Source: Bacteroidia bacterium
GTDB taxonomy: Bacteria; Bacteroidota; Bacteroidia; B-17B0; Aurantibacillaceae
Assembly: GCA_022841465.1 (NCBI GenBank)
Contig: JALHRL010000014.1
Span: 1 to 64,000, forward strand
Length of the DNA stretch: 64,000 bases
Reading direction: 5' to 3'
Both the position numbers and the translations under genes were made by a program. Under the pieces are notes generated by a model. It ran no database searches. It was not told the origin of the DNA and saw only the letters and a program-made list of their open reading frames with translations. Positions 21,931 to 25,477 of this stretch are shown here, one piece after another (positions within the stretch are counted from its first letter, which is position 1; every line of letters starts with the position of its first letter).

Positions 21931-23166
21931 ATGAAAATTTCTACTTTAGTTATAACAAGCGTTTTTTTTACATCCAACTTTTTTTCGCAAAATTTTAAAA
22001 CTGCCGATATAAAAAAGCATATAGATTATTTAGCATCCGATAAATTAAAAGGCAGAGGCACCTCAACAGAAGGTGAAAAATTAGCGGCCGCATATATTGC
22101 AGAACAATATAAAAAAATGGGTCTTACTGCTTTTAATAATTCTTACATAAAACCATTTCAATACAAACACAATCCAAATGCAAAACATTCGCACGATACT
22201 TCTACGGTTGGTATAGAAGAAAAAACAGCCCACAATGTAGTAGGCTTTTTAAATAACAAAGCTCCTTATACCATTGTTATTGGAGCACACTACGATCACT
22301 TAGGCGAAGGCCATGATAAAAATAGTTTAGACGCAAATCCAATTGGAAAAATTCACAACGGTGCCGATGATAATGCAAGCGGTACAGCAGGTGTTATAGA
22401 ATTAGCGAAATACTTTGCTTCCAATAAAAAAACAGAGCCCTACAATTTTTTATTTATTTGCTTTAGTGGAGAAGAGTTGGGTTTGTTAGGAAGTAAAAAA
22501 TACGTTGAGAAATCAGATATAGAATTAAGTAAAATGAATTACATGGTAAACATGGATATGATTGGTCGCTTAAACGATTCTACCAACAAATTAATGATTT
22601 ACGGTGTAGGCACTAGTCCTGTTTGGGTTCCCTTATTAGATTCAATTCAATCCAATTTAAAATTAGTGAAAGATAGCAGTGGAATTGGCCCAAGTGACCA
22701 AACATCTTTTTACTTAAAAGATATTCCGGTGTTGCATTATTTTAGCGGTCAACATAGCGATTATCACAAACCAAGCGACGATGAAGAAAAAATTAATTAC
22801 AAAGGCGAAGTAATAATTTTAGATTTTATTGCTGCTGCCATTGAAAAAACATTTCGTTATCCAAAACTTACTTTTACTAAAACACGCAACCCTGATATGG
22901 GAAAATCGAGTTTTAAAGTAAGTATGGGCGTAATGCCTGATTATACCTACGAAGGCGAAGGCATGAGAATTGACGGAGTAAGCGAAGGTAAACCAGCGTT
23001 TAAAGCAGGTTTAAAGGGTGGAGACATTATTATTAAGTTTGGGAACACCGCCGTTAAAAACGTAAAAGATTACATGAAAGCACTGGGCGAATTTAAAAAA
23101 GGAGATTCCACAACAGTTGAAATTTTACGTGATGGTAAAAAAATGAGTTTTCCGGTTAATTTATAA
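21931..23166 (+). CDS. M28-family metallopeptidase with C-terminal PDZ domain
   Basis: An exported zinc aminopeptidase-like enzyme. The signal peptide ends at FFTSNFFSQ. The catalytic domain carries the two-metal ligand set in VIGAHYDHLGEG (near 112), HNGADDNASGTAG (near 140), CFSGEELGLLGS (catalytic Glu near 178) and VNMDMIGRL (near 205), with the last His in HYFSGQHSDYHKPSD. A PDZ domain follows from about residue 325 (GMRIDGVSEGKPAFKAGLKGGDIII). The 411-residue length fits M28 plus PDZ. It starts 18 bp after the MBL-rhodanese gene and ends before a strong terminator. Confidence 0.93.
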   Translation: MKISTLVITSVFFTSNFFSQNFKTADIKKHIDYLASDKLKGRGTSTEGEKLAAAYIAEQYKKMGLTAFNNSYIKPFQYKHNPNAKHSHDTSTVGIEEKTAHNVVGFLNNKAPYTIVIGAHYDHLGEGHDKNSLDANPIGKIHNGADDNASGTAGVIELAKYFASNKKTEPYNFLFICFSGEELGLLGSKKYVEKSDIELSKMNYMVNMDMIGRLNDSTNKLMIYGVGTSPVWVPLLDSIQSNLKLVKDSSGIGPSDQTSFYLKDIPVLHYFSGQHSDYHKPSDDEEKINYKGEVIILDFIAAAIEKTFRYPKLTFTKTRNPDMGKSSFKVSMGVMPDYTYEGEGMRIDGVSEGKPAFKAGLKGGDIIIKFGNTAVKNVKDYMKALGEFKKGDSTTVEILRDGKKMSFPVNL

Positions 23167-23206
23167 ATGGGCAAAAATTTAAGCCCAACACAAAATAATT
23201 TAAAAT

Positions 23207-23239
23207 AAAAAAGGCTCAATCTAAACATTGAGCCTTTTT
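23207..23239. terminator. Bidirectional terminator between the M28 peptidase and tRNA-Arg
   Basis: AAAAAAGGCTCAAT and ATTGAGCCTTTTTA pair across a 6-nt loop, with A- and T-runs on either side, so it can serve both the rightward peptidase gene and the leftward tRNA. Confidence 0.85.
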
Positions 23240-23241
23240 AG

Positions 23242-23315
23242 TAGTCCCAGTTGGACTCGAACCAACGACCTACGGTTTAGAAAACCGTTGCTCTATCCAG
23301 TTGAGCTATGGGACC
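23242..23315 (-). tRNA. tRNA-Arg (anticodon TCT)
   Basis: On the - strand a full cloverleaf can be drawn: acceptor GGTCCCA paired with TGGGACT (one G-T pair), D arm TAGCTCAACTGGATAGAGCA, anticodon stem ACGGT/ACCGT with the loop TTTCTAA (anticodon TCT, reading AGA), and T arm GGTTCGAGTCC. The 3' CCA is not encoded in full; the sequence continues with C after the discriminator A. Its 5' end is duplicated 91 bp upstream (see the repeat entry). Confidence 0.96.
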
Positions 23316-23344
23316 ATTTTCTTTTAATTTCGAAACTATAGATT

Positions 23345-23384
23345 CCTGCCTACCGATACCACATCCTTTGAGATGTTAGGCAGG
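23345..23384. repeat. Palindromic (REP-like) element beside tRNA-Arg
   Basis: CCTGCCTA at 23345-23352 and TAGGCAGG at 23377-23384 form an 8-bp stem. Inside it ACATC (23361-23365) pairs with GATGT (23372-23376), leaving an 8-nt bulge on the left. It abuts the duplicated tRNA 5' end exactly. CCTGCC...GGCAGG palindromes are, from memory, repeated in various Bacteroidota genomes; I see only this copy in the window. Confidence 0.65.
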
Positions 23385-23412
23385 TATCCAGTTGAGCTAT
23401 GGGACCATTTTC
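23385..23412 (-). repeat. Duplicated 5' end of tRNA-Arg (28-bp direct repeat)
   Basis: These 28 bp are identical to 23294-23321 and contain the first 22 nt of tRNA-Arg plus 6 nt of 5' flank. The copy lies upstream of the real tRNA in its direction of transcription, separated by 63 bp that include a palindrome. It cannot fold as a tRNA. It may be a footprint of element insertion or excision at the tRNA, or a target duplication. Confidence 0.85.
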
Positions 23413-23524
23413 GAAAAATATAACTAAACCCTCATGATTTAGCCAAAAATCGCTCGGCAAAGGTAAAAAAATAAATAATTTATACAATTATAATTATTGC
23501 CGGATTTTGGCGTTTTTTGTAAAG

Positions 23525-25477
23525 GTGGAAATTTCTATTATTATAGTTAATTACAATGTAAAGTACTTTATTGAGCAGTGCCTTTACTCGGTTTTTAACG
23601 CCTTAAAGAATACCAAAGCCGAAGTTTTTGTAGTTGATAACAATTCAGTTGACGGCTCGGTAGCGCTTATTAAAAATAAATTTCCTCAGGTAAAACTAAT
23701 TGAAAACCATGTAAACAGTGGTTTTTCAGTTGCCAACAACCAGGCTATAAAATTGGCTACAGGCAAATATGTATTGCTGTTAAACCCCGATACCATTGTT
23801 CAGGAAGATACTTTTGAAAAGGTAATTGCCTTTATGAACCAACACCCCGAAGCCGGTGGATTGGGGATTAAAATGGTTGACGGTAAAGGAAATTTTTTAC
23901 CCGAAAGTAAGCGTGGTTTGCCAACACCTGCCGTAGCTTTTTACAAAATATTCGGCTTGGCAAAACTTTTTCCGAACTCGCAAAAATTCGGGCAATATCA
24001 TTTAACGTTTTTAGACAAAAATAAAAATCACACGGTAGATATTTTAAGCGGTGCTTTTATGTTGATGCGCAAAGAAGTGCTTGATAAAATTGGTTTGCTT
24101 GACGAAACATTTTTTATGTATGGAGAAGATGTTGATTTGAGTTATAGAATAACCCAAGCCGGTTATAAAAATTATTACTTTGCCGATTCCAGCATTATTC
24201 ATTACAAAGGCGAGAGTACTAAAAAAAGCAGTGTAAATTATGTTTTGGTTTTTTATAAAGCCATGGCAATTTTTGCGCGTAAACACTTTAGCAATAAAGG
24301 TGCCGGAATAATGATTTTTTTAATATACTTGGCCATTTACCTGCGTGCGTTTGCCGCAATATGCAGCCGCATTGTAAAACAAACATTTTTTCCGGCAATT
24401 GATTTTACCCTAATACTTTTAAGTTTATACTTCGTAAAAAATATCTACGAATTAAATTTTAAACTGTATCCAAATTTTTATTCCGATACCATTATCAATT
24501 TTGCATTTCCGGTTTACACCTTAATTTGGATGTTTTTTGCATACCTCAGCGGCGGTTACGATACGCCATTAAGGATTACAAAAATTATACGAGGCGTACT
24601 TACCGGATCGGCATTTATTTTAATTGTCTATTCATTACTTCCGGAGTATTACCGTTTTTCAAGAGCCTTAATTTTATTAGGTACCGCTTCTGCAATAGTA
24701 ATATACTGCGGTTTACGTGTAATTTATCATTTTGCCGGAATTAAACGATTTAAATTAACAGAACAATTAACCGATAAACGAATAGCCATAATTGGTGACG
24801 AAGAAGAATTTAATCGCGTAAATACTTTACTAAAACAAACTTCCATTCAGTGGAGTTTTATTGGTTTTGTAAGCAACGAATCTAATGGAATAAAAAACCC
24901 AAATTACATTGGGAATTTTAGTCAGATTGATGAAGTTATTGAAGTGCATCAAATAAACGAAGTAATTTTTTGTGCAAAAAATATCTCATCTCAAAACATC
25001 ATTAATAAAATGCTTTCATTGGTGGCAAAAGATATTGAGTTTAAAATAGCGCCGCCCGAAAGCCTTTCTATTATTGGAAGCAACAGTATTGATACAGCCG
25101 GCGAATTGTATGTAATTGATTTGAATAATATTGCAAAGCCTGAGAATAAACGAAAAAAACGCCTTATAGATATTTCCATTTCATTATTGTTGCTGGCAGG
25201 ATTACCTTTGTTTGCAATACTTCAAAAAAAACCAGTTGGTTTTATTATTAATGTATTTAAAGTATTATTTGGTTTAAATACTTGGGTGGGTTATGGTAAA
25301 GTAGTACGGAAAGATTTACCGGCCATTAAACCTTCTATACTCACGCCGGCAGATTCTTTAAAAGAAAAACCTTTACTTGAAAAATTTAATTTGCTATTAT
25401 TAAACTACTCTAAATCTTATAAAATAGAAAACGATTTGTTTATTATTCTTAAATCTTTCAGAAGCCTTGGCAATTAA
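23525..25477 (+). CDS. GT2 glycosyltransferase fused to a membrane/sugar-transferase-like region
   Basis: The first 230 residues are a GT-A glycosyltransferase of family 2: ISIIIVNYNV at the start, VFVVDNNSVDGS near 45, LLLNPDT (DxD-like metal site) near 90 and FMYGEDVDLSYRI near 205. Five or so hydrophobic helices follow (about 255-410). Then comes a Rossmann-like region (KRIAIIGDEEEFNRV) like the CoA-binding-type domain of WcaJ-type phosphoglycosyltransferases, and a C-terminal segment (KKRLIDISISLLLLAGLPLF, then KPVGFIINVFKVL) resembling the start of a sugar transferase but without its catalytic body. The GTG at 23525 is chosen because it begins exactly at the GT2 core; a TTG at 23507 is the alternative. 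Likely acts in surface polysaccharide synthesis. Confidence 0.85.
   Translation: MEISIIIVNYNVKYFIEQCLYSVFNALKNTKAEVFVVDNNSVDGSVALIKNKFPQVKLIENHVNSGFSVANNQAIKLATGKYVLLLNPDTIVQEDTFEKVIAFMNQHPEAGGLGIKMVDGKGNFLPESKRGLPTPAVAFYKIFGLAKLFPNSQKFGQYHLTFLDKNKNHTVDILSGAFMLMRKEVLDKIGLLDETFFMYGEDVDLSYRITQAGYKNYYFADSSIIHYKGESTKKSSVNYVLVFYKAMAIFARKHFSNKGAGIMIFLIYLAIYLRAFAAICSRIVKQTFFPAIDFTLILLSLYFVKNIYELNFKLYPNFYSDTIINFAFPVYTLIWMFFAYLSGGYDTPLRITKIIRGVLTGSAFILIVYSLLPEYYRFSRALILLGTASAIVIYCGLRVIYHFAGIKRFKLTEQLTDKRIAIIGDEEEFNRVNTLLKQTSIQWSFIGFVSNESNGIKNPNYIGNFSQIDEVIEVHQINEVIFCAKNISSQNIINKMLSLVAKDIEFKIAPPESLSIIGSNSIDTAGELYVIDLNNIAKPENKRKKRLIDISISLLLLAGLPLFAILQKKPVGFIINVFKVLFGLNTWVGYGKVVRKDLPAIKPSILTPADSLKEKPLLEKFNLLLLNYSKSYKIENDLFIILKSFRSLGN

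Follow-up and report, generated by a model that had tools for sequence, protein, structure and literature searches.

A hairpin-marked duplication of the tRNA-Arg(TCT) 5′ end in a Bacteroidota genome, probably the remnant of a small GIY-YIG nuclease cassette

The repeated tRNA 5′ end and its hairpin

The window, by which we mean the whole stretch of 64,000 nucleotides that was analysed, carries an intact tRNA-Arg(TCT) gene whose 5′ end is present twice (Table 1). A repeat search of the window found the two copies to be identical at 28/28 bp, where about 3 × 10−8 exact 28-mer pairs would be expected by chance in 64 kb. The 63 bp between the copies contain a CCTGCCTA/TAGGCAGG hairpin with a second, nested stem (ACATC/GATGT), and this hairpin lies flush with copy 2, exactly at tRNA nt 22. 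Folded as DNA, it outperformed 200/200 shuffled sequences on either strand (z = −5.6 and −5.0). An earlier note on this DNA had described a 28-bp duplication of the tRNA 5′ end with a 63-bp gap and an 8-bp palindrome abutting the second copy, and its coordinates were exact.

Because the tRNA is encoded on the minus strand, the second copy sits between the promoter and the tRNA gene. Read in the tRNA sense, the order is a promoter-like motif, the leader with tRNA nt 1–22, the hairpin, 23 nt, the same leader again, the intact tRNA and a terminator-like repeat. The promoter-like motif is of the TTG-N19-TACCTTTG type, which we take to be the Bacteroidota promoter. In the window, a hairpin interrupts a displaced tRNA piece at a loop, and an intact copy of the same tRNA lies beside the piece on the same strand. 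Neither a GIY-YIG ORF nor an integrase was found in the 63 bp between the copies, and beyond the tRNA an Rfam scan of window positions 22800–24000 returned only matches below the gathering score, with no intron family.

Table 1. Features at the tRNA-Arg(TCT) locus of the window
Feature	Position	Strand	Basis
tRNA-Arg(TCT), intact	23241..23315	−	ARAGORN; Rfam RF00005, 71.2 bits
Copy 1 of 28-bp repeat, within the intact gene: tRNA nt 1–22 (23294–23315) and 6 nt of leader	23294..23321	−	Repeat search, 100%
23-bp spacer separating the hairpin from the intact gene's leader; G029 carries the remainder of its cassette here	23322..23344	−	Comparison with G029 and G001
Hairpin of 40 nt with an 8-bp outer and a 5-bp inner stem, placed where the displaced piece stops (tRNA nt 22|23 junction)	23345..23384	−	DNA folding; same junction in G001, G009 and G029
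Copy 2: displaced tRNA nt 1–22 (23385–23406) and 6 nt of leader	23385..23412	−	Repeat search, 100%
Promoter-like TTG-N19-TACCTTTG, conserved, upstream of the displaced piece	23458..23487	−	Same motif type in 18/21 loci
Terminator-like 13-bp inverted repeat and T run, after the tRNA	23208..23239	−	Repeat search

The tRNA-Arg(TCT) locus in related genomes

The window region was matched in 60/60 genomes, as expected for a tRNA, and 30 loci (L010–L039) were examined. The neighbouring glycosyltransferase gene was present in 23/30. Two of these 23 were set aside: L018, in which the glycosyltransferase gene is not divergent, and L024, in which it lies 484 bp from the tRNA because a full cassette sits there. 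This left 21 comparable loci, the window included, with a divergent glycosyltransferase gene no more than 400 bp from the tRNA. The second tRNA piece and the hairpin were both present in 2/21 loci and both absent in 19/21, and none of the 21 had the duplication without the hairpin. Thus, the joint absence of element and second copy, which the earlier note had proposed to look for by aligning the locus, was borne out. In the window and in G001 the piece matches the tRNA at 22/22 nt and is accompanied by hairpin arms; in the other 19 loci the best upstream match to the piece was 9–12/22, with no CCTGCC or GGCAGG. The distance from gene start to tRNA was 85–133 bp in 18 of the 19 loci lacking the piece and 197 bp in the remaining one, G010; it was 209 bp in the window and 190 bp in G001. 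The G010 locus (L019) has about 90 bp extra between the promoter and tRNA-Arg(TCT), containing neither a tRNA piece nor a CCTGCC hairpin.

At the G001 locus, tRNA nt 1–22 are followed by a 40-nt CCTGCCTGCCG..CGGCAGGCAGG hairpin, tRNA nt 23–43 and then the intact tRNA, with no ORF upstream of the tRNA. The hairpin interior is poorly conserved between the window and G001 (24/40 positions identical), and one outer pair is changed on both sides (G-C versus A-T). The paired change and the promoter upstream of the piece would fit a hairpin-marked piece that is kept as a functional leader RNA controlling expression or processing of the downstream tRNA. We consider such a role, which is compatible with the cassette origin favoured below, very unlikely, as 19/21 loci do without piece and hairpin and the hairpin interior is not conserved.

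The locus set aside as L024 belongs to a genome of the same genus, G029, and has the full cassette at the orthologous tRNA-Arg(TCT), its hairpin again placed at nt 22|23. The order there begins with the promoter, a slightly mutated copy of tRNA nt 1–22, the hairpin and further tRNA sequence, followed by a GIY-YIG frame of 102 aa, a second piece and the intact tRNA; the order in the window is that of G029 minus the ORF. The second piece in G029 (L024 1449–1483), which suggests repeated insertion, is a shorter stretch of the tRNA 5′ end that is interrupted by a further hairpin and lies between the ORF and the intact tRNA. In G001, G009 and G010 a GIY-YIG ORF also lies downstream of the intact tRNA, and in G001 and G009 tRNA pieces with a break at nt 22|23 come after it; no tRNA pieces were detected after the downstream ORF of G010. 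Thus, the empty, full and ORF-less states all exist at one locus in one genus. The D-loop-plus-hairpin pattern was found in only 3/40 genomes of the genus, all at tRNA-Arg(TCT); G029 was missed by this pattern because its piece is mutated.

These comparisons bear on two further readings. Considered alone, the window would permit the view that the tRNA 5′ end was simply duplicated in place beside an unrelated hairpin, but the hairpin lies exactly at the repeat end and the same arrangement recurs in G001 and, with the ORF, in G029, making coincidence highly improbable. Part of a tRNA gene in direct repeat also recalls the attL/attR-type scar of an integrative element using a tRNA gene, which the earlier note had offered as one origin. 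We find that origin barely credible: the 5′ end is repeated rather than the 3′ end, only 63 bp with no integrase separate the copies, the hairpin is flush with one of them, and the full cassette of G029 carries a GIY-YIG frame. The broader suggestion in the earlier note, that a small mobile unit left a scar at the tRNA 5′ end, is supported by the full cassette at the same site in G029, with a different agent from those it had proposed.

Palindromes, nuclease genes and broken tRNA pieces beyond the locus

We searched the 3.77-Mb assembly of the window's own genome (G000) for the hairpin, a check that the earlier note had called for, and found the exact sequence to be unique; the looser pattern CCTGCCT-N(2–30)-AGGCAGG occurred in four places, the window hairpin included, and was dispersed in the genus, which is REP-like in one respect. 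Across six genomes of the genus there were 3 to 31 matches per genome (4 in the window's). The other three palindromes in G000 lie at C1:143398, C5:70630 and C17:54442; such palindromes are also present in G001, G009, G010, G014 and G029. They are about 20 or 39–40 nt long with genome-specific interiors, and several are nested in a larger repeat beginning GGGCGCC. In the genus, same-arm palindromes also occur away from tRNA, so the window hairpin may be a separate element.

Two Y1-type transposase genes are present in the genome (C5:24320 and C33:16431), neither beside the window hairpin. No family palindrome lay within 45 kb of either gene on the listed contigs, the nearest being 46 kb away. 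A CCTGCC..GGCAGG match at C5:24146, 131 bp upstream of the C5 Y1 gene, was discounted, as its arms are 6 bp and it lies inside a reading frame.

The same genome gave five matches to a profile of the GIY-YIG nuclease (A1). Contig C11 has an intact tRNA-Pro(TGG), a GIY-YIG ORF, a hairpin-broken tRNA-Pro 3′ end and a truncated second ORF; read by eye, the tRNA-Pro 3′ end is broken by two hairpins just before TTCGAG. Contig C18 has degenerate ORFs, one open ORF of 91 aa and a hairpin-broken tRNA-Met piece. With these cassettes in the same genome, a nuclease able to act in trans may still exist there.

Relatives of the nuclease were gathered by protein similarity only. A first set of 37 genomes gave matches in 21; named genomes contributed 14 loci, including Saprospiraceae, Flavobacteriaceae, Echinicola, Stahlbacteria/WOR-3, Falkowbacteria and Ignavibacteria MAGs; and a phylum sample gave matches in at least 125/198 genomes, with loci drawn from among the matches listed. 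Among the matches listed, a tRNA lay within 400 bp at 112/133 collected loci, always on the same strand (112/112). With 9 duplicates removed, the count among the matches listed was 104/124 distinct loci (94 within 100 bp), again on the same strand throughout (104/104) and covering 24 anticodons; the ORF was downstream of the tRNA at 65 of these 104 listed loci, upstream at 35 and on both sides at 4. As a control we took the 30 top-scoring Y1_Tnp loci from the same phylum genome sample, of which 0/30 had a tRNA within 400 bp and only one had any tRNA, more than 1 kb away.

Eight of the 20 tRNA-distant loci were read by eye. Five have broken tRNA pieces (L059, L075, L124, L129 and L187), L184 is at RNase P RNA, and nothing was recognised at L085. 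Rfam assigned RNase P RNA to two of the 20, L184 and L185, so tRNA is apparently not the sole RNA gene used; no group I intron, nor any other intron family, was identified by Rfam in the 20 loci. At L184 (250–972) and L185 (192–914) the family GIY-YIG ORF lies directly 5′ of the RNase P RNA on the same strand, and the L184 ORF is flanked by a long inverted repeat. At L155 (about 620–1000), read by eye, the family ORF seems to lie within a tyrosine-recombinase-like frame, breaking it at the catalytic motif. Three to eight cassette units stand in tandem at a single tRNA locus in L129 (929–3824), L130 (734–2492) and L113 (855–1725); the L129 array holds 7.9 copies of a 364-bp unit.

We detected a displaced tRNA piece at 96/104 tRNA-near loci. 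At 67/96, the end of a piece adjoins a strict hairpin, defined as at least 6 perfect pairs, compared with 61/1920 trials at random positions of the same loci. The other 29 loci lack a strict hairpin: in 18 of them, sequence between the pieces has been inserted or replaced, with weak folding in some cases, and in 11 no such stretch was detected; at some other loci, part of a tRNA arm is replaced by the hairpin. Clean insertions defined 41 distinct tRNA-junction pairs, of which 36 are in or bordering loops (D 16, T 15, anticodon 5) against 17.4 expected under uniform placement (0/20,000 simulations as high), although related loci may share junctions by descent and the 41 are therefore not independent events. 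The hairpin sequence differs between lineages, while the junctions recur (GTTC|GA, GGATA|GAGC, CTTG|AAAA).

At tRNA-Ser(GGA) of G009, 10/10 same-genus tRNAs resemble the displaced 3′ part (53 nt) more closely than the working 3′ part, by a margin of 1 to 6 nt (for example 52 versus 47), this being one case in which the ten tRNAs are related. The comparison used tRNAs of equal length and left out L235, which differs in length, and L225, in which no tRNA was called.

All four nuclease proteins scanned matched PF01541 above the cut-off. Two of them, P0001 and P0002, are 85–86 aa long, and the domain covers most of their length (residues 2–69 and 3–73), with no separate DNA-binding part; I-TevI carries such a part. 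Residues Y17, G19, H31, E51, E63 and K67 are invariant in 30 sequences and R27 is conserved in at least 90%; the Y, G, R, H and E columns are presumably the GIY-YIG catalytic residues. NCBIfam gave no match for P0001 or P0002, and two other proteins matched only below the cut-off. A search of plasmid and phage collections with P0001 returned no match at E 1e-5, a single query with which distant relatives may be missed. The predicted structure of the nuclease has a mean pLDDT of 96. In a fold search only UPF0213 (1zg2) passed E 0.001; beyond that cut-off, Slx1 chains reached a TM-score of 0.66–0.72 of the query and I-TevI 0.47–0.54. The protein is a bare catalytic domain like that of a branched-DNA nuclease, and insertions fall at stem-loop borders; together these features suggest that the nuclease may recognise tRNA-gene structure in extruded or single-stranded form.

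The wider survey also bears on the REP/RAYT agency that the earlier note had put forward. A REP-like unit, moved by Y1/RAYT or otherwise independent of GIY-YIG, could have inserted alone into a redundant tRNA piece, the cassette having supplied only that piece. Same-arm palindromes are indeed dispersed in the genus, also without tRNA, and the window's genome has two Y1_Tnp genes. We judge this course unlikely, since distant hosts repeatedly show hairpins of lineage-specific sequence at loop junctions next to GIY-YIG ORFs, the family palindromes keep their distance from both Y1 genes on the listed contigs, and the sampled Y1 loci of the phylum are not near tRNA. The enzyme linked to the hairpin in relatives is a GIY-YIG nuclease, and we did not retain REP/RAYT as the agent.

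A proposed tRNA-restoring cassette and its known parallels

On these sequence comparisons, we consider that the window feature is probably what remains, without the ORF, of a small GIY-YIG nuclease cassette whose insertions target tRNA genes and leave them restored. As the GIY-YIG ORF is absent between the two copies, the feature would be a relic rather than a member with a function. We infer that nucleases of the family cleave and home. The nuclease would cut or nick an unoccupied tRNA gene at a loop, and repair from an occupied copy would bring the cassette in. The tRNA would stay functional because the cassette would supply a substitute for whichever part of the tRNA it splits off, and the hairpin kept at the junction of the separated native part would both remove that part as a target and prevent its folding into a tRNA. 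Transcription from the native promoter may yield a single precursor spanning the displaced piece, hairpin and intact tRNA. The window's copy may have lost its ORF, or the piece may be a non-autonomous copy, with other family members persisting elsewhere in the genome.

Several points count against the cassette explanation. The window lacks the ORF, same-arm palindromes lie away from tRNA, the D-loop-plus-hairpin pattern is rare in the genus, and G010 has a longer upstream sequence without piece or hairpin. A restored tRNA should also still be a target; one possibility is that the target reaches into the changed flank, which could account for the resistance of the restored tRNA.

Parts of such a system are already known, namely a gene-restoring endonuclease cassette in fungal mitochondria and a GIY-YIG nuclease among tRNA genes, SegB of T4. 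As excerpted, the account of the mitochondrial mORF endonuclease elements states that they bring with them a substitute for the end of the gene (Allomyces atp6; Glomus atp6, atp9, cox2 and nad3), that the native part is displaced beyond the ORF and is closer to relatives, and that the Glomus atp9 mORF is a GIY-YIG (PMC3630166). Judged from these excerpts, the cassettes share with mORF elements an endonuclease ORF beside the target gene and may also share an incoming part that makes a working gene and a displaced native part; in one case, tRNA-Ser of G009, the displaced part is closer to relatives (10/10 comparisons). They differ in that the mORF targets are mitochondrial protein genes, whereas here the targets are bacterial tRNA genes and the displaced part bears a hairpin; the excerpts mention no junction hairpins (PMC3630166). 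SegB of T-even phages is described, in the passages available, as a free-standing GIY-YIG gene among tRNA genes (tRNA-Arg/tRNA-Ile in T4) and is said to cut tRNA-containing sequence and promote segmental amplification (PMC2988022, PMC13096335). The present genes are likewise free-standing GIY-YIG genes at tRNA genes, but SegB is a phage gene for which those passages mention no hairpin-marked displaced tRNA piece, and P0001 had no phage match at the threshold given above. Mitochondrial repetitive hairpin-forming or double-hairpin elements have, in the extracts consulted, conserved stems, variable loops and lineage-specific sequence (PMC2800124). These traits are found here too, but the extracts describe no nuclease or rebuilt tRNA gene, and "endonuclease" is a word absent from the main text (PMC2800124).

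Among the matches listed from open-licence PMC papers, none described bacterial GIY-YIG genes at tRNA with hairpin-marked pieces, as judged by title and start of abstract, and a prior description is possible. REP/RAYT systems consist of short GC-rich dispersed palindromes. The genus genomes resemble them in having short dispersed palindromes, but here the hairpins keep to fixed places in the loops of displaced tRNA pieces, a GIY-YIG gene lies alongside, and no Y1 link was found. We tentatively raise the possibility, which we hold with less than even confidence, that these are widespread and apparently undescribed bacterial mobile elements in which catalytic-domain-only GIY-YIG nucleases find stem-loop junctions of structured-RNA genes (tRNA and, apparently, RNase P RNA) as DNA structure, insert, rebuild the target, stamp the displaced piece with a palindrome and spread such palindromes, as a GIY-YIG counterpart of RAYT/REP.

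A cassette of this kind would account for features of Bacteroidota genomes that are easily misread as tRNA pseudogenes or REP scars, namely tRNA pieces, tandem nuclease arrays and some GC-rich hairpins. It raises the testable question of whether a nuclease without a DNA-binding part finds its target by the shape of the tRNA gene, and it would show how a selfish gene can inhabit tRNA genes without destroying them.
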